Positions 7,188 through 43,467 of a stretch of DNA of 55,912 nucleotides are shown here, one piece after another (the stretch's first letter is position 1; the number at the start of each line of letters is the position of its first letter). Source of the DNA: Bacteroidales bacterium (GTDB taxonomy: Bacteria > Bacteroidota > Bacteroidia > Bacteroidales > Muribaculaceae); the NCBI GenBank assembly GCA_014800735.1, contig JAAVFP010000022.1:1-55912 (forward strand), in the 5' to 3' direction. Below the pieces are notes generated by a model. The model searched no databases, was not told where the DNA came from, and saw only the letters and a list, made by a program, of their open reading frames with translations. The translations under genes and the position numbers were made by a program.

Positions 7188-7201
7188 TCAACGACTATTC
7201 A

Positions 7202-18930: not shown

Positions 18931-20319
18931 CTATAAGGTGTTATCGCGCAGCTGGGTGGCGTAGGCACTGATTTGGGCCATACGCTCGGGGATGGGGATC
19001 AGCTGCGGGCACTCCTTGAGACATTCTCCGCAGGCAATGCAGCGGTCGGCCTGGCGCAGACGTGGCACCGACTGGTCGTAGCCGAACAGGAAGGCGCGGC
19101 GTGCCTCGGCGTAGTGCGGGTCGGTGCTGGAGCGGGGCACGTTGTCGTCGTTGATACATTTATTATAGTGCGCGAAGATGCCGGGGATGTTCACGCCGTA
19201 GGGGCACGGCATGCAGTATTTGCAGTCCGTGCACGGAATGGTGTCGTTGAGCAGAATTTCCACTGCCATGCGCTGCAGGAAATCGTGCTCCTCCTCACTC
19301 AGTACCTCCAGGGGCGAGTAGGTGGCAAGGTTATCCTCCAGGTGGTCCATGTAGGTCATGCCGCTGAGCACGGTGAGCACGCCCTCAGGGCTGCCGGCAT
19401 AGCGGAAAGCCCAGGAAGCCACCGAGTCGTCCGGGCGGCGCTCCTTCATTTTCTTTGTCACCGGCTTGCTCACTTTGGCCAAGCGACCGCCCAGCAGCGG
19501 CTCCATAATCACGGCCGGGATGCCGCGCTTCTGCAGTTCGCCGTAGAGGTACACTGCATCCGTGTTGCCCTCGTTGGCATGCTCCCAGTCGATATAGTTC
19601 AGCTGAATCTGCACGAAGTCCCAGTGGATTTCGCCGCGGTCCATCATCTCAAGCAGGTGATTGAACACGGCCACGTCGCCGTGGTAGGAGAAGCCGAGGT
19701 TGCGGATACGGCCGTTGCGCTTTTGCTCCACCAGGTAGTCCAGAATACCGTTGTCAATATAGCGGCCATTGAAAGCCTCCATACCGCCCATGCCGATGGC
19801 GTGTAGCAGAAGATAGTCAATGTAGTCCGTTTGCAGGTATTTGAGCGAATTCTCGAACATCTGGATTGACCGCTCGCGCGGCCAGGTGTCGGGCCCGAAG
19901 TTGGAGAGTTTGGTGGCAATGTAGTAGCTGTCGCGGGGATGGCGCGACAGGGCTATGCCCACCGCTTCCTCGGATTTGCCGCGGCAGTAGGCGGGCGATG
20001 TGTCGAAGTAGTTCACGCCATGTTCAAGAGCGTGGTCAATGAGCTCGTTGATTGTTTCCTGGTCCAGCACGTCGTCGCCGTCCACCTTCTTGGTTGGGAG
20101 GCGCATGCAGCCGTAGCCCAGGATGGACACGGTGTCGCCCGTATTGGGATTGGTGCGGTAGGTCATTTCGCCCGTGCCGCGTTTGGATTTGCGACCCTCG
20201 GCATCGTCGGCCGTGACGTTGGCACCGCACGAGGCCAGGGCAGCCGCACCGCCGAGCACACCGATGTTGCGCAGGAAGCGGCGGCGCGATATATCTTGTA
20301 CTTTTTTCTTGTCGTCCAT
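18931..20319 (-). CDS. Exported aldo/keto reductase with C-terminal ferredoxin domain
   Basis: A 462-residue protein. A twin-arginine signal (SRRRFL, residues 11-16) is followed by a hydrophobic segment and the lipobox-like LASC (Cys31), suggesting a Tat-exported, possibly lipid-anchored product. The aldo/keto reductase barrel (about 55-340) keeps the catalytic Asp106, Tyr111, Lys137 and His173. The C-terminal region carries cysteine clusters (CTDCKYCMPCP, then CIACGECLKECP) typical of two 4Fe-4S clusters. Such proteins are annotated as Fe-S aldo/keto reductases of unknown substrate. It ends a probable four-gene operon with the polyferredoxin (10 bases upstream), which could supply electrons across the membrane. 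The exported location of an NAD(P)H-type fold is odd; the electron donor may be the ferredoxin domain. Confidence 0.88.
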   Translation of the reverse strand: MDDKKKVQDISRRRFLRNIGVLGGAAALASCGANVTADDAEGRKSKRGTGEMTYRTNPNTGDTVSILGYGCMRLPTKKVDGDDVLDQETINELIDHALEHGVNYFDTSPAYCRGKSEEAVGIALSRHPRDSYYIATKLSNFGPDTWPRERSIQMFENSLKYLQTDYIDYLLLHAIGMGGMEAFNGRYIDNGILDYLVEQKRNGRIRNLGFSYHGDVAVFNHLLEMMDRGEIHWDFVQIQLNYIDWEHANEGNTDAVYLYGELQKRGIPAVIMEPLLGGRLAKVSKPVTKKMKERRPDDSVASWAFRYAGSPEGVLTVLSGMTYMDHLEDNLATYSPLEVLSEEEHDFLQRMAVEILLNDTIPCTDCKYCMPCPYGVNIPGIFAHYNKCINDDNVPRSSTDPHYAEARRAFLFGYDQSVPRLRQADRCIACGECLKECPQLIPIPERMAQISAYATQLRDNTL

Positions 20320-25312: not shown

Positions 25313-25344
25313 AAGCGATAATACAACGTTTGTTTCTTTTTTTG

Positions 25345-25352
25345 CAAAGTTA
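25345..25352 (-). promoter_or_regulatory. -7 box of CxxC/T9SS copy 3
   Basis: TAACTTTG on the minus strand, 32 bases before the ATG; AT-rich upstream DNA without a clear TTTG. Confidence 0.5.
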
Positions 25353-25385
25353 CGAGTTAATTTTAGAAAATAAAATTTTTGATGT

Positions 25386-25413
25386 AAAAAAAACATTCTC
25401 AATAAGATATGTT
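25386..25413 (-). terminator. Terminator of CxxC/T9SS copy 2
   Basis: On the minus strand a small stem (AACAT/ATGTT plus TCT/AGA, loop TATTG) starts at the stop codon and is followed by eight T. It separates copies 2 and 3. Confidence 0.6.
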
Positions 25414-27305: not shown

Positions 27306-27336
27306 CCGGAATGGTTCAAAGTTTCATTAATCTGCG

Positions 27337-27344
27337 CAAAGTTA
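27337..27344 (-). promoter_or_regulatory. -7 box of CxxC/T9SS copy 2
   Basis: TAACTTTG on the minus strand, 31 bases before the ATG at 27305, in the same relative place as in the other two copies. Confidence 0.5.
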
Positions 27345-27380
27345 ATGAATAATTTAAGAAAAATAAAAGTGAAGGATGTA

Positions 27381-27416
27381 AAAAAGCCGCAACCCACGGA
27401 TGGGAAGCGGCTTTTT
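27381..27416 (-). terminator. Terminator of CxxC/T9SS copy 1
   Basis: AAAAAGCCGC (27381-27390) pairs with GCGGCTTTTT (27407-27416), with an inner CCCA/TGGG stem. It is symmetrical, with T-tracts on both strands. Confidence 0.85.
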
Positions 27417-27437
27417 GTGATAAAATAGATTCGTGGA

Positions 27438-29384
27438 TTACTTCACGATAACTTTGGCGGTGGTATCGTCGGCCTTGACAATATAGAGGCCGGCAGGGAG
27501 GGCGATGGTGCTTTCGCCTGCGGCTGTTGCCACGAGCTGACCGGCTACATTGTAGACAGTGGCTGCGGTGTACTGGCCGTTGAGGATGATTGCACCGTTG
27601 GAACCAATCACAGCAAGCTTGGCTTCGGCAGCAGCATCGGCCAGACCGGTTTCGTCAACCACCAGCTGAGCCTGCTTGGAGTTTACAACCTCGCCGGTAA
27701 CGTTGTCGATGATGAATGCGGTCACGAAGTAGGGATTGTCGCTGACCTTGTCGAGTTTGGTTTCGGTGTAGTATTCGTAGGTCTGGCCTGCTTTCAGGCT
27801 GTAGGGGATGGAACCTTCAATACCGGGCAGGTCGCCGACGAGCACACGTGCAACTTCGTTGTAGATGGTGCTTACGCTCTGAGGTTTGGTCTCCCAACCA
27901 TTCAGCTTGCCTGCATTGCCACCGGAGTAGTAGTTGGTCTGGTCATAGGGACCTACGCCGTTCTCGGTGATGTAGTAGGACATGCGGTAGCGGTCATTGC
28001 TGTTCTTGGTGTCCAGGAGGAACTTGGCGCTCGAAGTGATGCCGATATTGCCCTTGGAGTCGATTTTGCCCACAAGTTCGGCAACCGCGGCGAGCGATTT
28101 GGCATCGGCCTTGGCCAGGTTGTCGAACTCGCTGGTTTTACTCATGTCAGAGAATGAGGTGCGGTCAATCATCATGGAGGGGAAACCGGTGATGCCGATG
28201 TAGGTGAGAATCTCACCGTTGTTGGACATTGCCATTTCGTCGCCGTTGTGGATTGCTACGCCAGCAAACTGTTCGGGATAGTTTTCGCTGACATATTCCA
28301 TCGCCACGATGCCGCGCGGACACCAGCCACACCATGTACCGGTGCCTTCCTCAAGCAGGTAGGTGTGGGGGTAGGCCGTGGCAAAGTCGTAGCAGTTGAA
28401 GTTAGCCGTATAAGAAGCGTTAGTGTCGGTGTTGGGCTGACCGTTCACCTTGGTTACGGTAACGGTGAAAGGAACGCCAGCCTTCTGCTCGCCAAAGGTG
28501 AGCTTGGAGATGGAGGTGGTGTAGGTCTGGCCGTAGTAGATGGGGCTCAGGAGAGTAACTTCCTTGGTGGCGGGCTCCTGACCCTCGATGTAGTATTCGA
28601 GTTCAACGGAGTTTACGCTGTTGGACGCGGTGTTGGCCAGGGTGACGGTGGCCTTGAATTCTTGGTCGGGTTCAACGTTTGAAGGAACGGCTACGAGGGG
28701 GACCTTCACACCGTCCTTGGGCAGATTGTCGCCCTTGATGGTGGCGTAGATGCAGAGGGTGCCGAGTTCGGATGCAATGTTGTTCCATTCCATCTTGCCG
28801 GATTCGCCCACGGCAAACCAACCGCCAGCGAGATTGGTGGTGGGAATTTCGTCAACAACCAGGTAGAAGTCGTTGATAGAAGCAACTTTGAATTTATAGC
28901 CTACGGCAAAGGTTTCGTCCTCCTTGATAGTATAGGGCTCATCGAAGGCTATGGTGCAGTAGGCGTTGGGGGTGGAGCCTACGGTTGCGGTCTTGGAAAC
29001 GATGGGGTTGAAGTCCTCGCCATTGGCTTCAGGGATGATGAAAGCTTCAACTTCGTTGATGTCGTTCTTCTGAGTGTTGCCGTTTACGGCCGAGTAGAAG
29101 GATACGGCGGTTACCTGTGCGCCGGCGAACATCTTGCAGTTAGCGGGCAGGAATTCAAATGCCAGATACACGATGGAACCTTTACGGGCATTGTTGAGCT
29201 TGTAGGCGCTCGAAGGAGCTCCGGCAAGAGTGAAGTCCATGGAGCCTTCTTCGCCGGCACGCGATGCAGGAGCTTTAGCGATTGCTTCGCCCTGGAAGGG
29301 CACGGCGCTGAAGCCGGCGGGAGCGGCGAACAGGCTCGAAGCACCCAGCGCGACAGCAGAGAGAGTGAGTAATAATTTATTCAT
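27438..29384 (-). CDS. T9SS-secreted Omp28-like protein with CxxC, copy 1
   Basis: A 648-residue secreted protein, first of three tandem paralogs. ATG 29384 begins a signal peptide (about 1-20); a longer in-frame start would include the promoter. The N-terminal beta-sandwich region (about 45-230) contains NARKGSIVYLAFEFLPANC. An Ig-like region follows, then the thioredoxin-like CxxC (WCGWCPRG, near residue 350) with GFPSMMID downstream, an Omp28-like part, and a T9SS type A sorting tail ending KVIVK. Surface or secreted location is well supported; the redox role and partner are unknown. It has the best promoter of the three (29430-29462), so it may be the main copy. Confidence 0.83.
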   Translation of the reverse strand: MNKLLLTLSAVALGASSLFAAPAGFSAVPFQGEAIAKAPASRAGEEGSMDFTLAGAPSSAYKLNNARKGSIVYLAFEFLPANCKMFAGAQVTAVSFYSAVNGNTQKNDINEVEAFIIPEANGEDFNPIVSKTATVGSTPNAYCTIAFDEPYTIKEDETFAVGYKFKVASINDFYLVVDEIPTTNLAGGWFAVGESGKMEWNNIASELGTLCIYATIKGDNLPKDGVKVPLVAVPSNVEPDQEFKATVTLANTASNSVNSVELEYYIEGQEPATKEVTLLSPIYYGQTYTTSISKLTFGEQKAGVPFTVTVTKVNGQPNTDTNASYTANFNCYDFATAYPHTYLLEEGTGTWCGWCPRGIVAMEYVSENYPEQFAGVAIHNGDEMAMSNNGEILTYIGITGFPSMMIDRTSFSDMSKTSEFDNLAKADAKSLAAVAELVGKIDSKGNIGITSSAKFLLDTKNSNDRYRMSYYITENGVGPYDQTNYYSGGNAGKLNGWETKPQSVSTIYNEVARVLVGDLPGIEGSIPYSLKAGQTYEYYTETKLDKVSDNPYFVTAFIIDNVTGEVVNSKQAQLVVDETGLADAAAEAKLAVIGSNGAIILNGQYTAATVYNVAGQLVATAAGESTIALPAGLYIVKADDTTAKVIVK

Positions 29385-29429
29385 ATCTATTGCGTTAATG
29401 ATTATTCGCGTTAATGATAATTTATCCTG

Positions 29430-29590: not shown

Positions 29591-30391
29591 TTATTTCAAG
29601 AAAGGATCTCCTTTGGGATTCTGGCTTACAACCCAACGGAATGCGTTGACAACCAGAAGATTCTGGGTGGCATCGGTGAACTCGCGGTTGCCGTGGCCCA
29701 TGTTGAGGTACACCATGCGGTATTTGTGGTTGGTCCATGCAATGGGGAAGTCGCCGAAGCTGATTACGTCCTTGAGGCCCAGGGGATAGTTGGACTGGTC
29801 AAGCGACAGAAGCACTTCCACGTCGGGATTCTCGGCGGGCGAGGGGTTCCACATGTACCACTCGTTCTCGGGAGCGACGAACTTCACGGGCAGGTTCTTG
29901 GTGACGGGGTGGTTGGTTACGTCAACGGTGAGCAGCACAGGCTGCGGGGGCCAGCTGTTGCAGTAGAATGCGCCGCAACCCAGGAATTCGTTGAACCAGG
30001 GCCAGTGGGTGTTGCGGTCGTTGTAGGCAGCGGCGTGGAAACCGAGCCATCCGCCGCCGTTCTCCATGTATTTCTGGAATGCTTCGCGCTCGGCGGGGTC
30101 ATGTGGCTGAGCGTTCACGGCGATGATGATGTCGAACTGGTCCATGTTGTCGAGGTAGGGACGCAGCGAGGTGTCGGTGGTCAGAATCCAGCCGTCGCCC
30201 ACGGTGAGGTCCTTGAAGTACTTGATGGCATCCTCGGCCATTTCCACATGGGCGGGTTCCTCGGTGGTGGAGTAGTAGAGCAGGGCGTGGAAGCGGGGGC
30301 CCTTGGCATAGTTGGCGGGATAGGTGTCCGGAGCCTGAGCCCAGGCGCACACGGCTACCAGCATCATGGCCAGAAAAGCTTTGAATTTCAT
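29591..30391 (-). CDS. Exported ThuA-like domain protein
   Basis: A 266-residue protein with signal peptide about 1-19 and a single ThuA-like (class I glutamine amidotransferase-like fold) domain. Conserved blocks are GGGWLGFHAAAYND, FVAPENEWYMWNP and MVYLNMGHGNREF. ThuA was first linked to trehalose/keto-sugar use in rhizobia, but its reaction is not established. Here it follows a GH9 gene by 23 bases and shares the GWxGFHxA, ExEWYxxN-like and MGH blocks with the C-terminal part of the GH18 protein at 33491-35215. That points to a role in periplasmic processing of the sugars released by these hydrolases; the reaction is unknown. Confidence 0.88.
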   Translation of the reverse strand: MKFKAFLAMMLVAVCAWAQAPDTYPANYAKGPRFHALLYYSTTEEPAHVEMAEDAIKYFKDLTVGDGWILTTDTSLRPYLDNMDQFDIIIAVNAQPHDPAEREAFQKYMENGGGWLGFHAAAYNDRNTHWPWFNEFLGCGAFYCNSWPPQPVLLTVDVTNHPVTKNLPVKFVAPENEWYMWNPSPAENPDVEVLLSLDQSNYPLGLKDVISFGDFPIAWTNHKYRMVYLNMGHGNREFTDATQNLLVVNAFRWVVSQNPKGDPFLK

Positions 30392-30414: not shown

Positions 30415-32853
30415 TTAGTTATGATTGTCGAGTTCTGCAAGGAGCGAGAGCCATTTTCCGGCCGAGGTCACCCACACTTCCTTGTAGCAGGCATTGTTGA
30501 TCTGGGGCCAGTAGGGTTCGTCGGTATTTCCGATAGTGCGGATGCCCACGGGCATTTCGCCTGTCATTTCGCCGCACGAGAATGAGTTCATCTGCGGGAA
30601 GCGATGACCCTCGCCGAAAATCAGCGACTGTGCGAAGGGATTTTTACCCACAACCCAGTAGAGCTGTTCGCGGGCAATGTCGCGCAGTTCGTCGTCGCCG
30701 AAGTAGTTGGCCAGGATGGCGGCAGCCTTGCCGGTGGAGGTGTGCACGGCGCAGTTGCCGTTGAACACATTGAACCACACCGGGAAGCGCTTCACATAGT
30801 GGTGGTCGCCAACTTTCTCGCCCTGTTGCAGCTGCTCGGCGAAAAGCTCGGCGGCATTGGAAGGCGGGAAGAGGTGGAGAGCGAAGAACCCGTCGCGGTC
30901 CTCGTATTCGTTGTCGGCATACACGCCGCTGGGCACCATGCCGTAGGGGGCGGTGTAGGCCATCAGCTCCTTGAGGTAGTTGCCGTAGAGGCGCATGGCG
31001 TTCTCCCACTTGGCCTTGTCGGAATTGTCCGGTTGAGTGCGGCACAGTTCGGCCAGGGCCTGCATGTAGAGCTGGTCGCGCGACTGATGGATGAAGTGCA
31101 CGATGGAACGGCGGTCCTTGTCGCGGTAGAAGAAGCCGGCCAGACCGGGCTTGCCGCCAACGGCGTCGGTGTGCTGGCATGCGAGCACGTAGTCCATATT
31201 ATCGGCTGCGATGCGGGCGTACTTTTCATTGCCGGTGGCCTGATAGAGCTTGGATGCGGCCCACGACACTGTGGCGTGGTGCTGGCTGGGCGAGGTGTTG
31301 AAGGTGTGCTCGTATTCCTTGATGAAACCACCGTAGCCTTTCTGGGCGAAGGTTTCCTCTGCGAAAGCGAAATCTTCCTCGGCCACCTTAATCAGGTGCT
31401 GTGCAAGCATGGGGTCGGAATCGGCGAGCGACTGGGCGGCGTATGCCCCGAGGGCTGCGTAGAGGTAGTTGTCGTACGACACATTCTGCACGCGCACGGT
31501 GTGGATGTCGTCCCCGCTGCCGTGAATGCCGTCCTGCCAGATGAGCAGGCCCATGCTGGAAGCACGGTAACCGTCGCCGTAGCGGTTGCGCAGGGCGAAG
31601 TCCAGGCCCCAGCGGGCTTCCTCAAGCAGGCGTGCGGCCAGGATAGGATTGCGGTCGCGGGCGGCGTTGTAGGCTTCGAAAAGCGCGTGAGCCACCTCGG
31701 CGGTCTGGAGGGTCTGCTGCGAGAGGTCGCCGGCATCGTGCCAGCCGCCGCAGTAGGGGATGGAGAGGTCGCCGTGCACCGAGCGCAGGTCGGTGTGGCA
31801 GGTGGAGTGGATGCCGGGCACGTCGTAGCCGCAGCGCTGCGAAAAGATGTAGTTGAGGACCTTCCAGCGCGAGGGGTCCCACATGTCGTCGGTGCCGATG
31901 CTGAAGGGGCGGGTTTCCAGGCCGTCGCCCTGCAGGGTGTAGGTGCCCGGTTCGGTGATGGCGGAGAAGTCAATCACGCCGAAGGTGCCGGTGGTGGTGG
32001 TGGTGGGTGTGGCTTTGAATTTGCCGGCCACACTGCCGTCGGTGCCGCGTAGCAAGGTGAAATCGGCCCCGGCATGGCTGTCGGCCACAATGGCTGTCTT
32101 TCGGCCGTCGGCGGCATAGCCCGTCATTGAGTAGATGATGAAATTCGGGTCGGGCGCCCAGCCGCTCACTTTGTCGGTCAGTGGCACGCGCTGCAGGCGG
32201 ATGTTGTCAATGATATATGTGGCGCTGTCGCCGGTGGTGCGGTCGCGGCCGTTGAGCGAGATGCCGAACGACAGGCTCCCCATGCGGTCGCGCTGCAGGT
32301 CGGCTATTTCCAGATAGCAGGTGTTGCGCTCGCCGTTGCGCAGGTTGATTTGGTGTCCGCCCGTGGGCTGGTTGTAGCCTGCCTTTGGCGCGGCATCGTG
32401 GCTATTGTTGAAGCCGAGGTTCATGATGGTCACACGGCTGCCGTCGGCCTTGGGGGTGATGTCGAACACCAGGCGGTTGTAGTCCTCCCAGTTCTCGCCC
32501 TGAAGGTCGAGGGTGATTCCGCAGCGGCCGTAGTTGGCATAGTCGGGGTCGTCGGGCGAACCCACGGCTCGGCGGCCGGTGTTGTGGGCATAGGTCATGG
32601 CAGCTCCTCCGGGAGTCTCGGTCATGTAGCCTTCGCCCTGATGGCGCCAGCGACCGCGGGTGTCCAGTGTGCGCTCGGCCAGCACCTGCTTGCGTGCGGC
32701 ATAGGCATCAAGGCTATTCACGGTGTCCAGTGGCAGGGGCGAATGGATGTACCCCGATTTTATAAGCTGGCTTTCGAAGCTGTCGGGAGCGGCAGCCCCG
32801 GCGGTAATGGCGGCCAGGGCGATTGCCGGAAGTATGACTGTCAGTTTTTTCAT
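30415..32853 (-). CDS. Glycoside hydrolase family 9 enzyme
   Basis: An 812-residue exported enzyme. Signal peptide about 1-22; an N-terminal carbohydrate-binding-like beta domain (about 50-230); the Ig-like CelD_N domain (about 240-325, YSMTGYAADGRKTAIVAD); and the GH9 (alpha/alpha)6 catalytic domain (about 335-810) with GGWHDAGD near residue 371 (base and nucleophilic-water Asp) and the late NNACYKEVWVTSAGKW segment. GH9 includes endoglucanases but also exo-beta-glucosaminidases acting on chito-oligosaccharides. With GH18, nagB and ROK kinase genes just upstream, an amino-sugar substrate is the better guess, though not proven. It leads a two-gene unit with the ThuA gene and has a long structured leader. 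Confidence 0.9.
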   Translation of the reverse strand: MKKLTVILPAIALAAITAGAAAPDSFESQLIKSGYIHSPLPLDTVNSLDAYAARKQVLAERTLDTRGRWRHQGEGYMTETPGGAAMTYAHNTGRRAVGSPDDPDYANYGRCGITLDLQGENWEDYNRLVFDITPKADGSRVTIMNLGFNNSHDAAPKAGYNQPTGGHQINLRNGERNTCYLEIADLQRDRMGSLSFGISLNGRDRTTGDSATYIIDNIRLQRVPLTDKVSGWAPDPNFIIYSMTGYAADGRKTAIVADSHAGADFTLLRGTDGSVAGKFKATPTTTTTGTFGVIDFSAITEPGTYTLQGDGLETRPFSIGTDDMWDPSRWKVLNYIFSQRCGYDVPGIHSTCHTDLRSVHGDLSIPYCGGWHDAGDLSQQTLQTAEVAHALFEAYNAARDRNPILAARLLEEARWGLDFALRNRYGDGYRASSMGLLIWQDGIHGSGDDIHTVRVQNVSYDNYLYAALGAYAAQSLADSDPMLAQHLIKVAEEDFAFAEETFAQKGYGGFIKEYEHTFNTSPSQHHATVSWAASKLYQATGNEKYARIAADNMDYVLACQHTDAVGGKPGLAGFFYRDKDRRSIVHFIHQSRDQLYMQALAELCRTQPDNSDKAKWENAMRLYGNYLKELMAYTAPYGMVPSGVYADNEYEDRDGFFALHLFPPSNAAELFAEQLQQGEKVGDHHYVKRFPVWFNVFNGNCAVHTSTGKAAAILANYFGDDELRDIAREQLYWVVGKNPFAQSLIFGEGHRFPQMNSFSCGEMTGEMPVGIRTIGNTDEPYWPQINNACYKEVWVTSAGKWLSLLAELDNHN

Positions 32854-32906
32854 TTCTGGTTTTTAGCGGGTCGGTTCACATCAGGCGGATTGAAGGGAAA
32901 TAAAAA

Positions 32907-32965
32907 CCGGCAGCATAATTCGATATTCACCCATCAACCAAACGAAGATGATACTATGCTGCCGG
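32907..32965 (-). promoter_or_regulatory. Terminator-like leader hairpin 1 upstream of GH9
   Basis: Eleven perfect pairs (32907-32917 with 32955-32965, CCGGCAGCATA/TATGCTGCCGG) enclose a 37-base loop. On the minus strand TTTTTATTT follows. An ATG in the loop begins a 17-codon frame that runs through the stem and T-tract. It stands about 55 bases before the GH9 ATG. It is consistent with an attenuator or small structured RNA and shares loop sequence with the hairpin at 32994-33074. Confidence 0.55.
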
Positions 32966-32993
32966 TACAACCTAAAATCCAATTTTAAAAAAA

Positions 32994-33074
32994 GCCCCGC
33001 TGCCGTATCCGGTTCGTTAGAAGCAAATGCGATAATACCATCTAAAGAAATTCATTGACGATACCGCAGCGGGG
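32994..33074 (-). promoter_or_regulatory. Terminator-like leader hairpin 2 upstream of GH9
   Basis: Arms 32994-33009 and 33060-33074 pair with one mismatch around a loop of about 50 bases. On the minus strand CTTTTTTT follows. A 25-codon frame (ATG near 33118, ending TAG in the loop) enters the 5' arm, and directly after its stop an ATG starts an 18-codon frame running through the terminator. Together these look like leader-peptide control, but coding of either frame is unproven. Confidence 0.55.
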
Positions 33075-33276
33075 TGCTTCCTTTAATTCGTTATGTAGTT
33101 CGAAAAATACATTTCTCATTTAGCGGCGCCCCGCAGTGCGGATGCAACAAAGGGCCGCTGAAGTCCGCAGGCTTCGGCAGCAAATTCGGGGGAGAGTACA
33201 ATCCGGGCTATGATGGAGCAGCGGGAAAAATGTGAGCTCCGTGTTTTCAGGTCAGATTGGTGAATTTGGTGTGTCG
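33075..33276. other. Untranslated stretch of the GH9 leader
   Basis: No supported gene. The region contains several short stems (for example AGCGGC/GCCGCT at about 33122-33159 with CCGCA/TGCGG inside, and GAAG/CTTC near 33160-33175), so it is probably a folded part of the leader. A 58-codon plus-strand open frame across 33059-33232 has no ATG and no recognised similarity. Confidence 0.4.
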
Positions 33277-33302
33277 AGCCTTAAGGCTACGATGCAAAAT
33301 TA
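33277..33302 (-). promoter_or_regulatory. Candidate GH9 promoter with downstream palindrome
   Basis: TAATTTTG on the minus strand (33295-33302) fits the -7 box. Immediately downstream is the perfect 12-base palindrome AGCCTTAAGGCT (33277-33288), at the expected transcription start, where a repressor could bind. No TTTG at the -33 position. If used, the GH9 leader is about 440 bases. Confidence 0.4.
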
Positions 33303-33369
33303 GCACCTAAAATGCTCTCAGGTGGGTGAATTTATGTCAAAATAGGTTCAATTATTGTCATTCGCGGTC

Positions 33370-33427
33370 GTTTTTGTGTGCGGACAAGTGCGCACGACGG
33401 TGCACACAGACGCTTTTACACAAAAAC
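33370..33427. repeat. Inverted repeat near the GH18 terminator
   Basis: Ten-base perfect arms GTTTTTGTGT (33370-33379) and ACACAAAAAC (33418-33427) enclose a GC-rich centre containing the palindrome GTGCGCAC and further GTGTGC/GCACAC pairing. It abuts the terminator at 33429-33461, could fold as an alternative hairpin, or may hold a protein-binding site for the GH9 unit. Confidence 0.5.
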
Positions 33428-33428
33428 A

Positions 33429-33461
33429 ACGGTTACCGGACGGTGTGGGTCCGGTAACCGT
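33429..33461 (-). terminator. Terminator of the nagK-nagB2-transporter-GH18 operon
   Basis: Thirteen perfect pairs ACGGTTACCGGAC with 33449-33461, seven-base loop, followed on the minus strand by TGTTTTTGTG. It lies 30 bases after the GH18 stop. Confidence 0.85.
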
Positions 33462-33490
33462 AAGTGTCATAGGGTTAGGATGTGATTCTT

Positions 33491-35215
33491 TTATTCGAGC
33501 GCCCAGAGGATGGAGTTCTCGAAAAGCTTGGTGAACTCCGGCGTGTCAATCAGTTTGGGGCTGTGGCCCATCTGGATGTAGACGTTGCGGGCTGCTTTGT
33601 TGGGGTTGACCCACACCACGGGGTGGTCGCCCATGCGGATGTCGGAAGCGGGAGTGTAGCTGTCCTCGTCGACGGATGCGAGTACCTGCACGTTGGCGCG
33701 GGGCGACACGTTGTAGGTGTACCATTCGTCGTCGGGAATCACGAAGTGGTCGGGCAGACCGGCCATCACGGGGTGCTCGGCGTTCTCAACAGCCACGGTG
33801 CCGTCGGCCAGGGGAGCGATGTAGTTCTGGAACTTGATGCCGCCCATGAAGTCGGAGAACCAGTCCCACATGGGATAGCCGTCGAACTCACCCAGCAGGG
33901 TTGCGTGGTGGAAACCAATCCAGCCACCCTTACCCTCGTCGATGTATTCGATGAAGGCTTCCTCGCCTTCCTTGTTCCAGGTGTAGGGAGGGAAGTCGAG
34001 CTGGATAACCAGGTCGTAGTCGGCAAGGAAGGGTTTGGTCACGTGGCTCACGTGGTTGAGCTCGGTCACGGAGAAGTCGAGTTCCTCGCCCTTCTTGCGG
34101 AGCCATTCCATGGCAGCGCGGGTGAAGGGGCCGTGCTGGCCACCGCCTTCGCTCAGCACAAGCACGTGCTTGGCGCGGGGCTTCTTCATCGTGTTCTCAT
34201 ATACGGTGCTGCGCAGGGTGTTGTTGGCATCGTCGCCCGAGTAATCCCAGTACATGGTGCCGCGCAGGCCGTTGGCCACGGCATACTGGCACTTGAGGGC
34301 TGCCGAACGCGCATTCTCGAATCCCATCACCAGCTTGCCTTCCTCATCGGCCATGTAGGGGGCGCAGGCAATCGAATCCCACACCTCGTGGGTGCCGGGA
34401 AGCACTTCTATTTTGTTGAAGTTGGCATAGGGAGCGTAGGGCTCCGAGCCGCGACCGTAGAATGGAATGCCAAGGGTGAGCTTGCCGGCGGGAACACCTG
34501 CGGCAATGTGCTTGCGCACGGCCTGGTCGGCGCTGGTGCCGGTGAGGCCTTCGCGGGCATAGAGGGCGCTGTGGTGGCGGGGAGCATTGCCCATGTCGTA
34601 GCTCATGATGTTGATGAAGTCGATGTAGGGCAGAATTGCGGGGAAGTCGATGTAGTCAGCCGAGCATGCGGTGGCTGCAGTGAGCAGGGCGTCGGCGCCC
34701 AGAGCTTCGCGCAGGTCGCGCATCAGTAGGGTGAAGTTGGCCGTGTCGTCGGGCGAGCAGGAAATACCGGCAGCATCGCTGGTGGGGTATTCCCAGTCGA
34801 TGTCGATACCGTCCAGGTTGAATTCCTTGGCCACGCGGGCTGCGTCGGCAGCGAACGCGGCACGCTTGGTGGAATCGGCAGCCATTTCGCTGAAGCGGCC
34901 GCTGCCCCAGCCGCCGATTGACAGAAGCACTTTCAGGTCGGGAGCCTCATTCTTGAGTGCGGTGATGGCCTTGAGGCGGTCGGGGTTGGCCACGTTCACT
35001 CCGTCGAAAGTTTCGTTGACGTGACCGAAGGCATAGTTGATGTGGGTCACCAGTTCGGGAGCGGGCATGTCCTCGGTCCACGAGGTCACGTAGGCCACAA
35101 CCACGTTCTCGGGGTTGCTGACTGCCTGCTCGTTTTCGCCATGAGCCGTGGCGCACGATGTGAGCGATGCGCAGGCAATGAGCGAAGCTGCAAATATTTT
35201 GCTGAGATTGGTCAT
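33491..35215 (-). CDS. GH18 chitinase-like lipoprotein fused to a ThuA domain
   Basis: A 574-residue lipoprotein (lipobox LTSC, Cys21). Residues about 38-344 form a GH18 barrel with the SIGGWGSG strand, the DGIDIDWE motif whose Glu142 is the expected acid catalyst (Asp138, Asp140 before it), MSYDM and a late MYWDYSGD. GH18 enzymes cut beta-1,4 bonds of N-acetylglucosamine polymers or N-glycan cores using the substrate acetamido group. Residues about 348-574 are a ThuA-like domain with GGWIGFHHA, IPDDEWYTYN and YIQMGHS, homologous to the free protein at 29591-30391. A GH18-ThuA fusion is unusual and suggests the two act on the same molecule. It is the last gene of an operon with ROK kinase, deaminase and importer, 24 bases after the importer gene. 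Confidence 0.9.
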   Translation of the reverse strand: MTNLSKIFAASLIACASLTSCATAHGENEQAVSNPENVVVAYVTSWTEDMPAPELVTHINYAFGHVNETFDGVNVANPDRLKAITALKNEAPDLKVLLSIGGWGSGRFSEMAADSTKRAAFAADAARVAKEFNLDGIDIDWEYPTSDAAGISCSPDDTANFTLLMRDLREALGADALLTAATACSADYIDFPAILPYIDFINIMSYDMGNAPRHHSALYAREGLTGTSADQAVRKHIAAGVPAGKLTLGIPFYGRGSEPYAPYANFNKIEVLPGTHEVWDSIACAPYMADEEGKLVMGFENARSAALKCQYAVANGLRGTMYWDYSGDDANNTLRSTVYENTMKKPRAKHVLVLSEGGGQHGPFTRAAMEWLRKKGEELDFSVTELNHVSHVTKPFLADYDLVIQLDFPPYTWNKEGEEAFIEYIDEGKGGWIGFHHATLLGEFDGYPMWDWFSDFMGGIKFQNYIAPLADGTVAVENAEHPVMAGLPDHFVIPDDEWYTYNVSPRANVQVLASVDEDSYTPASDIRMGDHPVVWVNPNKAARNVYIQMGHSPKLIDTPEFTKLFENSILWALE

Positions 35216-35239: not shown

Positions 35240-36508
35240 TTAAACTGCACTTTTGCGCACGCGTGAGCCCACCAGGGCGTAGTAGAGCATGAAAGCCTCG
35301 CAGAAAATCACGATAGCCCACGAGAATCGCCAGCCGCCCATGGAGTCGGCCAGGATGCCCTGGAGCAGAGGCAGGATGGCACCGCCAACCACACCAATCA
35401 TGAACACGCCGGAGGCTGCGGAGGTGTACTTGCCCAGCTGAGCGATGGACAGGGTGAAGATGGCGCCCCACATGATGGAGTGGAACAGGCCCACGCCGGC
35501 AAGCATCCAGGGGTCGTCAACAACGATAGCCGCAAGAGTAAGGACGGCTGCGCACACGGTGGTGACGGTGAGCTGGGTGCGGGGCGAGATGGTGCTGAGC
35601 GAGCTGCCCACGAGGCGGCCGATGAGCATGCCGCCCCAGTATAGGGTGGCCAGCAGAGCGGGGGAGGCCATGTTGCGCTCGAAGGCATACATGGTGATGT
35701 TGGCACCGATGCACACCTCGGCACCTACGTAGAAGAAGATTGCAATCACACCGAGCTTGAGGTGGCTGAAGGACCACACGCTCTCCTCGAGTTTCTCGTT
35801 GCCTTCGGCACGGGTGCCGCTGATGTCGGGCAGTGAGATGCGCGAGAGCACACCGGCGATGAGGGCGATGATGATGAGCATTGCCAGGAAGGGCAGCAGC
35901 AGGCTTTCAACGCTCACAGCCTCCATGGCGAGGCCGCCGAACACAACGGCGGTCACGAAGTAGGGGGCCACGGTGGTGCCGATGGAGTTGGAGGCACCGC
36001 CGATGGCCATGCGCTGAATGGACTGGGTGCCACGCACTTCGCAGGCCGACAGATAGGGGTTGAGCACCACCTGAAGAATGGTGACCGATGCGCCCATCAC
36101 GAACGAGCCGAGCAGGAACACGATGAAGCCGAAGGGCAGGTTGATGCCGCCGAAGGCCAGGCCTGCCTCGGGCATGTGAACGGCCACAAGCGACGAAGCG
36201 CAGATGAGTGCCATGCCGGCAATCATCACAATGAGTGCGCGGATCAGTGTGGAGCGGTAGCCCACGCGGTCAACCCACTTGGCGCCGATGCCGCCGCTCA
36301 GGGGATAGGCCAGGAACCACGAGAAGGTGATGAGCATGGCGAAGGTGTTCTTGAACGAACCGGCCTCGGACAGGAAAGCTTCCTGCAGAGGCTTCTGGAA
36401 TTGGGTGTTGGCCGTGGTGAGGAAGCCTACCACGAAGAACAGCAGGACCATTGTGATGAACGGCCCGACGTAGCTCACATTTTTTGCTACGGATGCTTTT
36501 TGTGACAT
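35240..36508 (-). CDS. FucP/NagP-type sugar:H+ symporter (MFS)
   Basis: A 422-residue inner-membrane protein with 12 predicted membrane segments of the FucP/GluP major facilitator group. Markers are the N-terminal GFLTTANTQFQKPLQEAF, the YPLSGGIGAKWVDRVGYR loop after segment 2 and LNPYLSACEVRGTQSIQRMAIGGASNSIGTT in the middle. Bacterial members import L-fucose, glucose/galactose or N-acetylglucosamine (NagP). Between a GH18 gene and nagB/ROK kinase genes, N-acetylglucosamine or a short chito-oligosaccharide is the likeliest cargo. It lies 12 bases after the nagB-like gene. Confidence 0.88.
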   Translation of the reverse strand: MSQKASVAKNVSYVGPFITMVLLFFVVGFLTTANTQFQKPLQEAFLSEAGSFKNTFAMLITFSWFLAYPLSGGIGAKWVDRVGYRSTLIRALIVMIAGMALICASSLVAVHMPEAGLAFGGINLPFGFIVFLLGSFVMGASVTILQVVLNPYLSACEVRGTQSIQRMAIGGASNSIGTTVAPYFVTAVVFGGLAMEAVSVESLLLPFLAMLIIIALIAGVLSRISLPDISGTRAEGNEKLEESVWSFSHLKLGVIAIFFYVGAEVCIGANITMYAFERNMASPALLATLYWGGMLIGRLVGSSLSTISPRTQLTVTTVCAAVLTLAAIVVDDPWMLAGVGLFHSIMWGAIFTLSIAQLGKYTSAASGVFMIGVVGGAILPLLQGILADSMGGWRFSWAIVIFCEAFMLYYALVGSRVRKSAV

Positions 36509-36520: not shown

Positions 36521-37246
36521 TTATTTAAGATTTTTCGCTGCTTTTGCGTCGAGAAGATATTCCACGTTGGGGTGGAGCTGAAGCACGGAGCCGGGCAGCG
36601 ATTCGGTGACGGGACCGTTGATGATGGCGTCCACCACCTCGCTCTTGTTGTCGCCTTTAGCCACGAGCACAATGCGGCGCGCGTGCATGATGTCCTTGAT
36701 GCCCAGGGTGATGCCGCCCAGAGGACCTTCCGAACCCGTCTCGCGGCGGATGCGCTCCTCGAGCTCGGGGTGCATCTTGGTGTGCCATGCGGTGCCACCG
36801 AAAGGTGCGCCGGGGTTGTTGAAGCCAAGGTGACCGTTCTCGCCCAGGCCCAGGATGAGCAGGTCGATGCCTCCTCGCTTGTCGAGCTCGGCGGTGAAGG
36901 CTTTGCAGTCAGCCTCGAAATCCTCGCTGCGGGTGGGCAGCATGATGAAATTTTCTTCGGGCACGGGCAGGAAGCCTACCAGCTCGTTGCGCAGCATGGC
37001 ATAGCATGCGCCGGCATATTCGCGGTCCACGCCCGTCACCTCGTCGAGGCCGAAGAAAGTCACCTTCGACACATCGAACGGTTCGGCCTTCCAGGCCTCG
37101 GCGGCCAGGCGATGCATGTTGCCTGTGGTGCGGCCCGTGGAAAGGCCCACCACGCTCTCGGGTTTGTTCTTGATTTGTTCGGTTATGCGGGAGGCGGCTG
37201 TGCTGTCGAATGTTGCCTCATCGGGCAGGATAGTAATCTTTCTCAT
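36521..37246 (-). CDS. NagB-family sugar-phosphate deaminase/isomerase, divergent paralog
   Basis: A 241-residue cytosolic protein of the glucosamine-6-phosphate deaminase family, shorter than the copy at 16200-17009 and lacking the allosteric C-terminal part. STGRTTG (phosphate loop, about 36-42), GLDEVTG (Asp68, the expected base) and GENGHLGFNNPG (about 135-146) are visible. His139 is kept, but the residues matching Asp141 and Glu148 of E. coli NagB are Asn137 and Asn144. Asn at the first site occurs in Bacillus-type NagB; Asn at the second is unusual, so substrate or activity may differ (for instance another 2-amino-sugar phosphate). Its ATG overlaps the ROK kinase stop by four bases, so the two are translated together. 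Confidence 0.85.
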   Translation of the reverse strand: MRKITILPDEATFDSTAASRITEQIKNKPESVVGLSTGRTTGNMHRLAAEAWKAEPFDVSKVTFFGLDEVTGVDREYAGACYAMLRNELVGFLPVPEENFIMLPTRSEDFEADCKAFTAELDKRGGIDLLILGLGENGHLGFNNPGAPFGGTAWHTKMHPELEERIRRETGSEGPLGGITLGIKDIMHARRIVLVAKGDNKSEVVDAIINGPVTESLPGSVLQLHPNVEYLLDAKAAKNLK

Positions 37247-38208
37247 GCTGTTACAAGTGCTTTTGAGCCTTCCATAGCCACTGCAGCGGCGCCGAGAAGA
37301 CCCACGAAATCGGAATTCAGTTTGGTGAGTACCACGCCGTTGGACACGAAGCGCATGGTCTGAGGATTGAGGTAGGAGTGGATTTTTTCAAGCATATAGC
37401 CGTCGGACACTATGCCACCGCCGAGCACCACGGTGTCGGGGTCGGACACGCGCACCAGGTTCATGATGAGATTGGCCAGACCCTCGGCAGCGTTTTCAAC
37501 AAGCACGGTGCACAGGGGGTCGCCCTTGCGGGCCAGGGCGTAGATGTCGCGCACGTCCAGGCGAGTGTCCTTGTCGTCGGGGAACTGAAGCGCTGTGGGA
37601 TATTTGTCGCGCAGATGGCGTGCGCTGGCATCGAAACCGCTGCCCGAAGCAATCCGCTCAATGCAGTCCACACGGCCGCAAGGGCAGCTGATGCCGGTGT
37701 TGACACCCACACGGGTATGGCCCACCTCGCCGGCGTTGAAGTGCGAGCCGCGCACCTGGTGGCCGTTGACCACTGTGCCGGCGGCAATACCGGTGCCCAC
37801 GTTGATATAAATATAGTTCTTGGAAATGCGGCCTACGCCCCAGACGCGTTCGGCGCGGGTGGCGCTTTTCACGTCGTTGTCAATGGTGCAGTGCAGCCCG
37901 AACTCCGATTTGAGTTCCTGCGCAAGTGAAATCTGGCCGCTGCGGTGCGGGTCAATCTGGTGCCACACTCCGCCCTCGGAGTCCACACGACCAATCATGC
38001 CGACACCCATGGCAACAGCTGGCTTACCGGTTGCCCAGCCAACAGTGGCAAGGTAGTCCTTCACTGAATTTTTCATTATTTCAACGGCTGCGGGCTGATT
38101 CACGTAGCCGGACACATATTTTTTATGGCGCAAAATATTGCCGTATTCGTCGACTTCTCCGACAAGCAGCTTCGTGCCACCAAAATCAAGGCATAGATAG
38201 GTTTCCAT
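37243..38208 (-). CDS. ROK-family sugar kinase, probable N-acetylglucosamine kinase
   Basis: A 321-residue cytosolic kinase. ATG 38208 starts METYLCLDFGGTK (ATP phosphate-binding DFGGTK); a TTG 21 bases upstream lies on the predicted -7 box and is not used here. It keeps the ND of the sugar-binding DNDVKSAT, the VGTGIAAG adenosine loop and the ROK zinc motif (ISCPCGRVDCIE with the upstream GEVGHT His). ROK kinases phosphorylate glucose, N-acetylglucosamine or related sugars. The operon (deaminase, importer, GH18) favours N-acetylglucosamine. No DNA-binding domain is present, so it is not a repressor. Confidence 0.88.
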   Translation of the reverse strand: METYLCLDFGGTKLLVGEVDEYGNILRHKKYVSGYVNQPAAVEIMKNSVKDYLATVGWATGKPAVAMGVGMIGRVDSEGGVWHQIDPHRSGQISLAQELKSEFGLHCTIDNDVKSATRAERVWGVGRISKNYIYINVGTGIAAGTVVNGHQVRGSHFNAGEVGHTRVGVNTGISCPCGRVDCIERIASGSGFDASARHLRDKYPTALQFPDDKDTRLDVRDIYALARKGDPLCTVLVENAAEGLANLIMNLVRVSDPDTVVLGGGIVSDGYMLEKIHSYLNPQTMRFVSNGVVLTKLNSDFVGLLGAAAVAMEGSKALVTA

Positions 38209-38226
38209 TGCGATAGCGTTTTTATA

Positions 38227-38234
38227 CAAAATTA
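38227..38234 (-). promoter_or_regulatory. -7 box of the ROK kinase operon
   Basis: TAATTTTG on the minus strand, 18 bases before the ATG at 38208, implying a leader of only about 12 bases. The -33 element is not recognisable, which could reflect dependence on an activator. Confidence 0.45.
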
Positions 38235-39568: not shown

Positions 39569-39594
39569 TAGACTTACTTATAGTCTCGACTTTG

Positions 39595-42500
39595 ATGAAT
39601 CACCATAAGTTATGCGCATTTGCGCTTGTTTTATTGTCCTTAGCCTTAACTATACCTCAGAATATAACCGCAGCCGACGACGTATTCGAGAACTTCAGTG
39701 TGCGCCAGGGCCTGAGCAACCGCCAGGTCTACGAGGTGTGCCAGGATTCGGCCGGGTTTATATGGATATACACCAACTCGGGCATCGACCGCTTTGACGG
39801 AAGCCAATTCCGTCACTACCGCCTGCCGCTTGAGGAGTCGTCGCGCGACTTCATCCAGTCCGGCACATCCGTTGTGCGCGACCAATCCGGCAATGTGTGG
39901 ATTGCCTTGAAGACGGGTCAGATTTTTGCTTACGACCGCCGCTCGGATTCTTTTGTGCAGCGCCTTGACATCCGCGGTACCACCGGTGGCGTGATTCTGT
40001 ATGATATAGCGGTGGTTGACAACGGCCGTGGCCACGTGGTGGCAACCTCGGAGGGCCTGTGGTTTTTCGACGATAAGGGCGGACGGTGTATCGCAGCGGC
40101 CGATGAGCCTGTGTTCGCCCTCGAGGCAACCCCCAGGGGCTACTACATCGGCACCGGCGACGGCGTGGCCCTCTACAACCCCACCGACAGCACTCTGAAC
40201 TATCTGTGGCAGAAAGCCGGCACGCACGTGACTGACATCCGCGCCGAGGATGGCCGCGTGGTGTTCGGAACCTTTGCCGACGGTGCGTATATCTACGACT
40301 ACGCTGATGGCGGTGTGCGCATGCTCGGCCCCGAGCAGCCCCGCCTGCCCATCAACGATATTGAAATTGACAGCTCAGGCGAAATCCTCATCGGTATCGA
40401 CGGTGTTGGCGTGGTGCGTTTCGATGCCGCTGGGCTCAACGTGCTGGGCCGCTACTCTATGGACGAGGAAATGCACGGTTCCCTCTCGTCCAACACCATC
40501 ACTGACATAGAGATTGATAATGCCGGTGGCCTGTGGATTGCAACTTCCACAGCCGGTGTGAACTATAAGTCGGGCAAAGAACCGGCCACTAAAGTCACCA
40601 AGCACGTGCCATATCTGAGCCAGTCGCTGGCATCTGACAATGTTAACGCCATCTTCCAGGACTCGCGCGGCAACACATGGTATGCTACCGACGACGGTGT
40701 GAGCGTGCAGACCCCCGGCGGAGTGTGGCGCCACTTCCTCAAAGGCAAGGATTACAGCACCAACGTGTTTCTGGCAATCGAGGAGGACGCCGACGGCAAA
40801 ATCTGGGTCGGTGGCTACGGCACGGGTACATTCGTTATCGACCCCGCCACGTGGGCTGTCCGCGCACTGCCCACCCGCCACGGCGACACCGGCATAGGCA
40901 CGGGCCATGTGTTTGACATCACCGCCGTGGGCGACGAGGTGTGGCTCGGCGGTATCGAGGGCCCCATCACGCGCTACAATATCCGCACCGGCAACTACAC
41001 CTACTTCCCCCACTTCTGTGTGGGCGGCATAGCCGAGGGCGAGAAGGGCGAAGTGTACATTGCCGGGTGTGCCGGTCTGGGTGTAATCCGCCCCGGCGAC
41101 ACGGATGTTACCTGGATTTCCGACTCCTCGGATTTCAGCTTTGTATATCCTGTGAGCAGTGTGGTTTATGACCGCAAGCGCGGCGAGGTGTGGATGCCTA
41201 CCGACGGTCAGGGACTGGTACGCTACGATGTGGAGAAGGGTAAATTCTCCACCTTTATGCCGCGCACCGAACTTGAATCCGCTTCAATCAATGCACTGGT
41301 GATTGACCAGGACGGCTCAATGTGGTTCTGCACGGAAACCACCATGTACCACTCGGACGATATGCGCTCAACATACCGCAACATCAATCCCGCCCTCGGC
41401 ATCGAGGCCGGAACCGGCACGTTCAATGCCCGCGCCGGAGCGGTGACTTCAGCCGGGCTGTCGTTCGGCACGGCCGAGGGTGCCATAACTTTCCGTCCCG
41501 ACCTTGAACTGGAGGACGTGGAACATTCAAAGATTGTGCTCAATGACCTGAGCGTGCAGTACGAACTGCAACGCCCGGGTTCCGATAACTCGTTGCTGCC
41601 TGATAATCTCAACGACGTGGAGGGGCTGGTGTTCCCGCACGATAAGAACGCGTTCGAGCTGTCGTTCTCGACGGTGAATTTCACCTCGCCCCGCCGCATG
41701 CGTTATGAGTATATGCTCGAAGGCTACGACAAGGACTGGATTTCGGCCGACAACGGAGCGCATACCGTGAGCTATTCCGACCTCCCTCCGGGTCGCTATG
41801 TGTTCCGCGTGCTGGTTCAGGATGCTTTCTCGCACAAGACCATCGACGAGCGCAGTCTGCCCATAGTAATCAAGTCGCCCTGGTGGAGCCGCTGGTGGAG
41901 CATACTGCTGTTCATCGTCCTGGGCGTGGCTCTTGTGATTGGCCTGGCGCGAATCATCATCCACCGCCGCCGCGAGAAGCAGGTGAACGAGAAAATCCAG
42001 GCTTTCATCAACGTGGCCCATGACATCCGCACCCCCGTGACACTCATCAAGGCGCCGCTGACCGAAATCCAGCAGCACGACGACCTGCCCGAGAAGGTGA
42101 AACGCAATTCCGAGGTTGCGATGACCAACCTCAACCGCCTGCTGGACATGATTGGCCAGCTCGTGGATATAAACCGCGAGTCAAACCACTCGGACGACCT
42201 TTCCCTGGAGCCCTGCAATATCCGCCGCTTCGTCAATGAAAAAGTGGAAACTTTCCGCTGCGTGGGCATGCACAAGGGCCTCCTGCTGAAAGTAAAGGCT
42301 CCGCATGACTTCCCCGAGATGGAGGTGGACGTAAAAAAACTGGACCACATCCTGGATAACCTTATTTCGAACGCAATCAAATACACGGATGCGGGAGAAA
42401 TCACAGTGAGCCTGGCGCTCGAAAAGAAATTCTGGACACTCTCCGTGTCGGACACCGGTATGGGTATTCCCAAGAAGGACCAGAAGCGGATTTTCCGCAG

Positions 42501-43467
42501 CCAGTACCGCGCGGCGCGTGCGGCTGCGTCAACGGAACTGGGTTCGGGCATAGGCCTACTCATCACAAAGCGTCTTGTGAAGTTGCACCGCGGCGACATC
42601 TCCTTTGAGAGCGAGGAGGGCAAGGGCACCAAGTTCGTGGTGCGTCTGCCACGCCTTGAGGCTCCTGACGGCTCGTACGTTGCACCTGTGCACGAAACAG
42701 CTGTCGAGGCAGCCGAAAATCCTGGCAAACCTCTCATCTATCTTGCCGAGGACGACCCCGATATCCGTCGCTACATGTGCTCGTCGCTCGGCGATGATTT
42801 CGAGGTAGTGGCTGCGGACAACGGCGAGGCCATCCTGGAAATGGTGACCAAAAACAATCCCGACCTTATCCTGAGCGACGTGATGATGCCGGGCCTTGGC
42901 GGTATCGACCTGTGCCGGCAGCTGAAATCAAATGTCGAAACCAGTCATATCCCCGTGATTCTGCTCACCGGCCTGACGGGGCGCAACGACATTATCGCCG
43001 GTCTGGAGGCCGGAGCCAACGATTACATCGCCAAGCCCTTCGACATGTCGGTGCTCCGCGTGCGCATAAAGAACATCCTTGACAACCGCAACCGCCTGCG
43101 CCAGCAACTGACCACCGATTCCGAGGCTCCGGCCGAGGATGAATTTGCCAGCGAGCTCGACCGCGCGTTCATTGATAGAGTACGTGCCATAATCGACGAG
43201 CACATGGCCGACTCGGACTACTCGATTGCCGACGTATGCCGCGAACTGGGCATGAGCCGCACGTCGGTCTACAACAAAATTAAATCGCTGACGGGCCTGT
43301 CCATCAACGATTATATCCGAGTTTACCGCCTTAACAAGGCCAAGGAGCTGTTGCTGAAGCATCAGTACAACGTGGCGGAAGTGGCCTATATGGTCGGCTT
43401 TGCGGATGCAAAATACTTCTCCACCTGCTTCAAGAAGCAATTCGACATCTCCCCCAGCAAGGTGTGA
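39595..43467 (+). CDS. Hybrid two-component system regulator (HTCS)
   Basis: A 1290-residue one-protein sensor-regulator. Signal peptide/first membrane segment (about 1-26); two seven-blade periplasmic propellers made of Reg_prop repeats (about 30-690, many GxxWxGT-like turns); a Y_Y_Y domain (about 700-762); a membrane helix (about 768-790); HisKA with the phospho-accepting His809 in VAHDIRTP; HATPase (N box near 918); a receiver domain with Asp1095 in LSDVMMPG; and an AraC-type DNA-binding domain (about 1185-1290). Bacteroidetes HTCS sense oligosaccharides directly and switch on nearby glycan-use genes. Here the nearest candidates are the ROK kinase operon (starting 1.4 kb away on the other strand) and the GH9 unit. 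ATG 39595 is preferred to a TTG three bases upstream. Confidence 0.95.
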   Translation: MNHHKLCAFALVLLSLALTIPQNITAADDVFENFSVRQGLSNRQVYEVCQDSAGFIWIYTNSGIDRFDGSQFRHYRLPLEESSRDFIQSGTSVVRDQSGNVWIALKTGQIFAYDRRSDSFVQRLDIRGTTGGVILYDIAVVDNGRGHVVATSEGLWFFDDKGGRCIAAADEPVFALEATPRGYYIGTGDGVALYNPTDSTLNYLWQKAGTHVTDIRAEDGRVVFGTFADGAYIYDYADGGVRMLGPEQPRLPINDIEIDSSGEILIGIDGVGVVRFDAAGLNVLGRYSMDEEMHGSLSSNTITDIEIDNAGGLWIATSTAGVNYKSGKEPATKVTKHVPYLSQSLASDNVNAIFQDSRGNTWYATDDGVSVQTPGGVWRHFLKGKDYSTNVFLAIEEDADGKIWVGGYGTGTFVIDPATWAVRALPTRHGDTGIGTGHVFDITAVGDEVWLGGIEGPITRYNIRTGNYTYFPHFCVGGIAEGEKGEVYIAGCAGLGVIRPGDTDVTWISDSSDFSFVYPVSSVVYDRKRGEVWMPTDGQGLVRYDVEKGKFSTFMPRTELESASINALVIDQDGSMWFCTETTMYHSDDMRSTYRNINPALGIEAGTGTFNARAGAVTSAGLSFGTAEGAITFRPDLELEDVEHSKIVLNDLSVQYELQRPGSDNSLLPDNLNDVEGLVFPHDKNAFELSFSTVNFTSPRRMRYEYMLEGYDKDWISADNGAHTVSYSDLPPGRYVFRVLVQDAFSHKTIDERSLPIVIKSPWWSRWWSILLFIVLGVALVIGLARIIIHRRREKQVNEKIQAFINVAHDIRTPVTLIKAPLTEIQQHDDLPEKVKRNSEVAMTNLNRLLDMIGQLVDINRESNHSDDLSLEPCNIRRFVNEKVETFRCVGMHKGLLLKVKAPHDFPEMEVDVKKLDHILDNLISNAIKYTDAGEITVSLALEKKFWTLSVSDTGMGIPKKDQKRIFRSQYRAARAAASTELGSGIGLLITKRLVKLHRGDISFESEEGKGTKFVVRLPRLEAPDGSYVAPVHETAVEAAENPGKPLIYLAEDDPDIRRYMCSSLGDDFEVVAADNGEAILEMVTKNNPDLILSDVMMPGLGGIDLCRQLKSNVETSHIPVILLTGLTGRNDIIAGLEAGANDYIAKPFDMSVLRVRIKNILDNRNRLRQQLTTDSEAPAEDEFASELDRAFIDRVRAIIDEHMADSDYSIADVCRELGMSRTSVYNKIKSLTGLSINDYIRVYRLNKAKELLLKHQYNVAEVAYMVGFADAKYFSTCFKKQFDISPSKV

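Follow-up and report, generated by a model that had tools for sequence, protein, structure and literature searches.

The ThuA domain is widespread and, despite available crystal structures, no demonstrated ThuA reaction was found in the open-licence literature searched. Among its solved representatives are the structures 4jqs and 4pxy of Bacteroides uniformis BACUNI_01602, a stand-alone protein titled 'putative thua-like'. For GH18 glycoside hydrolases, structures have been reported for an N-acetylglucosaminidase of P. barengoltzii (6inx), the CotE chitinase domain (6t9m) and ChiW (5gzu), and a comparison by titles showed that ThuA is named in none of them. Here we describe a protein which joins both domains in a single chain, encoded on contig JAAVFP010000022.1 of a Bacteroidales bacterium; the window referred to below is the whole stretch analysed, 55,912 nucleotides in length.

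Domains and conserved residues of the GH18-ThuA fusion

The fusion protein and its parts are located as follows (aa, amino acids; ORF, open reading frame).

33491..35215, reverse strand: GH18-ThuA fusion protein, a 574 aa ORF without internal stop
35153..35215, reverse strand: signal sequence with lipobox-like Cys15/Cys21, assigned by pattern only
34232..35101, reverse strand: GH18 domain, residues 39-328 (Pfam PF00704, E 6.8e-67)
34790..34813, reverse strand: GH18 catalytic motif DGIDIDWE, residues 135-142, with catalytic Glu142
33500..34165, reverse strand: ThuA domain of clade A, residues 351-572 (Pfam PF06283, E 3.1e-43)

The fusion is real, and each of its halves was confirmed by profile and by fold. 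A sequence-only reading of this DNA had proposed one chain with a ThuA domain starting at about residue 348, which agrees with the Pfam boundaries and with the predicted folds. The GH18 domain scored above the Pfam cut-off and adopts a TIM barrel, with 6inx and 6t9m as its nearest folds. The fused ThuA reached 148.9 bits against PF06283 (cut-off 33.4) and covered positions 2-209 of the 209 in the profile. Modelling of the full 574-aa chain with AlphaFold2 gave a mean predicted local distance difference test score (pLDDT) of 90.7 and a predicted template modelling score (pTM) of 0.69, with a helix at residues 4-19 in the signal region. As the matches listed in fold searches with this model were all GH18 enzymes, the ThuA half was folded (pTM 0.92) and searched alone. 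It showed the fold of solved ThuA-like proteins; the structure prediction proposed along with the sequence-only reading thus yielded a TIM barrel plus a ThuA fold, and no different fold for the ThuA half.

The GH18 motif is complete, as had been claimed. Asp135, Asp138, Asp140 and Glu142 are invariant in an alignment of 14 GH18-ThuA fusions, and Tyr206 and Trp323, which we take to be the GH18 active-site tyrosine and tryptophan, are present at their positions. In the ThuA half, the GFH and MGH motifs occupy residues 434-436 and 549-551, and His361, His436, Glu497, Tyr499, Asp530 and His551 are invariant in both ThuA clades described below, a count that excludes two long-branch rows (L135 and L136). 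Residues 345-574 are free of cysteine, so the ThuA half has no Cys nucleophile and lacks the cysteine of the Cys-His-Glu triad of class I glutamine amidotransferases. The retention of residues invariant in both clades together with the missing cysteine suggests that the fused ThuA may be an additional enzyme and not a glutaminase or binding module. The proposal that the protein is a lipoprotein fared less well: a lipobox-like Cys15/Cys21 is found by pattern, and this pattern, matched without a signal-peptide program, occurs in just 5 of the 14 aligned fusions and is not conserved.

Repeated fusion and the pairing of two ThuA clades

In a phylogeny of 91 ThuA domains, two groups separate with full support: clade A, with 49 rows, and clade B, with 42. 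The fused ThuA belongs to clade A and the stand-alone ThuA of the window to clade B. The sequence-only reading had seen the same sequence blocks in both; the two domains are not copies of each other, since they are identical at 65 of 231 aligned positions and fall into two deep clades. The stand-alone protein matches the crystallised 4jqs/4pxy over the whole chain (E 1.3e-115), and these structures, which lie outside the tree, can be assigned to clade B because of this closeness; their identity to the fused clade-A ThuA is 32%. Rows fused to GH18 are found on both sides of the split, 17 in clade A and 9 in clade B (26 of 91). The fusion label requires six changes on the tree, at least four of which are forced by well-supported branches, gains and losses being undistinguished. 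GH18 is joined to clade-A ThuA and, separately, to clade-B ThuA.

The search for further fusions and their context, which had been proposed as a check, revealed full fusions in the family of the source genome and, around the fusion of the window, a conserved amino-sugar locus. Among 297 family genomes, the source genome included, any match (E <= 0.001) was found in 78 and a single match across both domains in 15, the ThuA half belonging to clade A in 12 and to clade B in three. One more full fusion (G565) emerged from 393 genomes of the order, and none from 395 genomes of the phylum (both E <= 1e-20). A scan of named genomes, from which the best 80 of 588 relatives were kept and 54 of these annotated, showed 12 one-ORF fusions, six A-type and six B-type; two of them (L137, L138) repeat L034 and L035 and had already been counted (G246, G032). 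The isolate Bacteroides rodentium JCM 16496 carries the fusion in an intact 574-residue frame. Its presence in this isolate and in 15 of 297 family genomes argues that the fusion is no artefact. GH18 domains of the same type were also observed at the head of very large ORFs, roughly 1580 to 2770 aa in length (L154, L156, L159, L167).

The two clades occur together. Within the family, a stand-alone clade-B ThuA was found in all 12 genomes with an A-type fusion versus 7 of 285 others (10 of 285 if the three B-type fusions are included; Fisher p 8e-16, a statistic that ignores kinship); the search behind these counts considered, for each genome, a limited number of candidates. At the order level, clade B was present in 10 of 11 type-A genomes besides the source, the eleventh contig being only 5.2 kb long. 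L104, L109 and L111 even combine both ThuA types in a single polypeptide.

Other partners of ThuA were found as well. ThuA-GH9 fusions of 840 and 855 aa lie beside clade-A and clade-B ThuA genes in L101 (658-3180) and L102 (9942-12509). Their ThuA, N-terminal to GH9, is divergent and on the clade-A side (38-39% identity); both fusions were recognised by BLAST, and that of L101 also by Pfam, with CelD_N between ThuA and GH9. More distant ThuA domains are fused to a glucose/sorbosone dehydrogenase in other Bacteroidota (L226 1649-5446, L227 505-3387, L228 3-3107), and two of these three proteins also carry PKD and CBM6 domains. As its partners include GH9, a second ThuA and a sugar dehydrogenase, the fusion does not link ThuA exclusively to N-acetylglucosamine (GlcNAc); the sequence-only interpretation is supported in part.

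The dehydrogenase fusions fit an explanation in which ThuA acts on oxidised 3-keto sugars, as has been suggested for rhizobial ThuA/ThuB, the GH18-ThuA fusion coupling glycan cleavage to that pathway. ThuB is a dehydrogenase of the GFO/IDH/MocA type. Pfam scans of 30 window ORFs revealed no such enzyme, so that no ThuB-type gene was seen beside ThuA. The window does encode an aldo/keto reductase (18931-20319) as well as a short-chain dehydrogenase (12921-13670), both at a distance of about 9 kb or more from the locus. We consider this explanation improbable, even though the thuAB operon has been linked to 3-keto sugars, according to a source citing that work (PMC4765114).

A conserved amino-sugar locus

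The fusion gene sits in a conserved amino-sugar locus. Its neighbours in the window are the following.

29591..30391, reverse strand: stand-alone ThuA of clade B (PF06283, E 3.9e-35)
30415..32853, reverse strand: GH9 glycoside hydrolase with CelD_N and an extra N-terminal region (PF00759, E 1.7e-23; PF02927, E 8.7e-9)
32854..33490, no strand: gap without the SusC, SusD and third gene of relatives, remnant not found
35240..36508, reverse strand: MFS sugar transporter, GluP/NagP-like (gluP E 6.6e-53, NagP E 2.5e-36, both under the curated cut-offs)
36521..37246, reverse strand: NagB-like glucosamine-6-phosphate deaminase (best PDB match 2bkv, E 5.3e-32)
37243..38229, reverse strand: ROK-family sugar kinase (PF00480, E 5.9e-54)
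39592..43467, forward strand: divergent hybrid two-component regulator, from Pfam domains, with a similar regulator at the same locus end in relatives

The genes for ROK kinase, NagB-like protein, MFS transporter, GH18-ThuA, GH9 and clade-B ThuA thus follow each other on one strand. The GH9 enzyme retains in alignment its catalytic motifs, DAGD and a C-terminal Glu. All NCBIfam matches of the NagB-like protein are under cut-off, and 2bkv is a glucosamine-6-phosphate deaminase. Eight relatives (L034-L038, L041, L042, L047) share this gene order, SusC, SusD and a third gene lying between GH18-ThuA and GH9; the simple ORF caller skipped one gene each in L035 and L041, and L047 ends within GH9. 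A search of the window with SusC and SusD of L034 gave no match and no remnant, so it does not hold a SusCD locus. In L103 the same gene set occurs with GH18 and the two ThuA genes unfused, SusC/SusD again being absent, and GH18 and ThuA are separate neighbours in L049, L115, L163, L175 and L185.

Context was tabulated for 63 loci, a set biased by the way of finding, from which L016, L045, L048, L050-L052, L110-L112, L127, L128, L137, L138 and the remaining named-genome loci not listed in it were excluded. Clade-A loci had GH9 within 8 kb in 26 of 44 cases; for GH18 the count was 23 of 44, with fused copies taken in. A search with the ThuA half gave eleven phylum-level loci (L116-L126), of which six, four of them from one genus, have GH9 nearby and five do not. 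Weak HGSNAT-like matches were seen beside ThuA or GH9 in L105 (11208-12416) and L129 (8975-10141), as was an acyltransferase match under cut-off in L117 (9599-10771).

The locus substrate is most likely a GlcNAc-containing glycan, a chito-oligosaccharide being favoured. Some neighbours would also suit a mixed glucan/GlcNAc polymer or an N-glycan, from which GH9, GH3 and GH30 would trim glucosyl residues while ThuA handles a substituent: GH30 relatives lie near type-A ThuA in L105, L113, L117 and L163 (by BLAST; by Pfam for L105 and L113), GH3 relatives occur in L036-L038 and L103 (BLAST), and the B. rodentium protein has a weak EndoS-like Pfam match under cut-off. The exo-acting GH9 group, moreover, cuts beta-glucosides too, as stated in PMC6096475. 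Yet sequence and fold of the GH18 domain resemble chitinases and N-acetylglucosaminidases, and the NagB-like deaminase and the sugar kinase adjoin the fusion, so that we regard a mixed polymer or an N-glycan as rather unlikely.

Elsewhere in the window, three large tandem proteins with weak Omp28/lectin-like matches, two of which look similar by eye, are encoded at 23360-29387 on the reverse strand, and three DUF4493 proteins in a row at 4533-10778, the last with a PCMD domain.

Possible role and comparison with known systems

We propose that the fusion is a two-domain enzyme of a GlcNAc-glycan utilisation locus, in which a catalytic ThuA would work between the GH18 and GH9 steps; we consider the chances of this proposal evenly balanced. 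The fusion presumably acts outside the cytoplasm. Its GH18 domain would cut beside GlcNAc by the substrate-assisted reaction usual in this family, as its intact motif indicates. The clade-A ThuA, with a glutaminase-like fold lacking the Cys nucleophile, would then join the stand-alone clade-B ThuA in processing the chain that GH18 sets free; a catalytic role is probable, and its place before the GH9 step is inferred. The MFS transporter would import the resulting monosaccharide for phosphorylation by the ROK kinase, and deamination would fall to the NagB-like protein.

Several observations weigh against this proposal. With a pTM of 0.69, the two-domain model does not fix how the active sites are positioned to each other. 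The window GH9 lies outside the exo-glucosaminidase group, which it matches partially and at E 3e-8 to 6e-5 (5dgq, 1.3e-5). Neither GH9 nor GH18 is found within 8 kb in 5 of the 11 phylum-level type-A loci, no ROK, NagB or MFS relative lies near the B-type fusions of L143-L147, and G052 (L048 9604-11106) has two tandem GH18 ORFs, the second of which carries a partial clade-A-like ThuA in a 501-aa frame. Finally, ThuA-like folds can bind glycans: PMC7229062 describes one as the glycan-binding part of Agd3, and PMC7618045 one as the domain by which a surface protein binds levan. The fused ThuA might accordingly be a carbohydrate-binding module which holds the glycan for GH18 and performs no chemistry. 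However, the conserved surface residues of the ThuA-like protein are not found in Agd3, as its authors state (PMC7229062), while the fused ThuA keeps the residues invariant in both clades, and a strict pairing of clade A with clade B is not expected for a binding module; a purely binding function therefore appears unlikely to us.

A more specific version of the catalytic proposal is that clade-A and clade-B ThuA together might supply the missing N-deacetylase of chito-oligosaccharide use in Bacteroidota. GH18 requires the N-acetyl group of its substrate. It would produce short GlcNAc chains and the ThuA pair would strip the acetyl groups, leaving glucosamine for GH9 and the enzymes of the cytoplasm; the exo-acting GH9 group requires the N-acetyl group to be removed, according to PMC6096475. 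ThuA would in this case be an amide hydrolase, by analogy with its fold relatives dimethylformamidase (domain III) and N-acetyl-(R)-beta-phenylalanine acylase (8i59, 14% identity). We make no claim that the ThuA half carries the iron site of dimethylformamidase (Tyr399, Tyr440, Glu521).

The distribution of the GlcNAc-6-phosphate deacetylase gene nagA had appeared to favour this version. No nagA lies in the fusion locus, and TIGR00221 scored over its cut-off in 3 of the 12 genomes with A-type fusions, several of which are incomplete (70-99%). The baseline is low as well (96 of 297 family genomes; 14 of 29 further genomes with ThuA loci); B. rodentium (G1073) has no match over cut-off, and nagA is present in Parabacteroides L151 (G1074) and L179 (G1075). 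Of 21 genomes searched for other deacetylases, 17 have PIG-L matches in open frames of 620-690 aa, among them 11 of the 12 with A-type fusions, and 5 have YdjC. The three PIG-L proteins scanned are all NagB-PIG-L fusions (L221 25-1968, L222 122-2095, L224 242-2224, from G000, G032 and G601, where nagA was not over cut-off), and such proteins could replace the GlcNAc-6-phosphate deacetylase in the cytoplasm. With this baseline and these fusions, the argument from missing nagA was downgraded; cytoplasmic deacetylation is probably available, and we hold the joint deacetylase and amide hydrolase reading to be quite doubtful.

The repeated fusion, the near-strict A/B pairing and a substrate that can be guessed offer a concrete route to the function of ThuA, for which the isolate B. 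rodentium JCM 16496 can serve. If ThuA does modify amino sugars, many unannotated genes of gut Bacteroidota would gain a function.

Among known systems, the exo-acting GH9 glucosaminidases VC0615 (6gdt), PBPRA0520 (5dgq) and VP2484 (3h7l) belong to a different subgroup than the weakly matching GH9 of the window; the GH9 proteins beside a free clade-A ThuA in L105 and L116 match these three at E 1e-122 or better. In PMC6096475, VC0615 is described as part of a chitin operon and as an enzyme with good activity on (GlcN)2, slow cleavage of glucosides and no cleavage of (GlcNAc)2. The chitin locus ChiUL of Flavobacterium johnsoniae differs by its GH20 chitobiase and by the absence of the term 'ThuA' from the main text of PMC5127042; it resembles the loci described here in its SusC/SusD-type pairs, GH18, NagB and two-component regulator. 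Although GH18 and ThuA are each known already, the open-licence literature searched revealed neither their union in one protein nor its recurrent emergence nor the A/B pairing.
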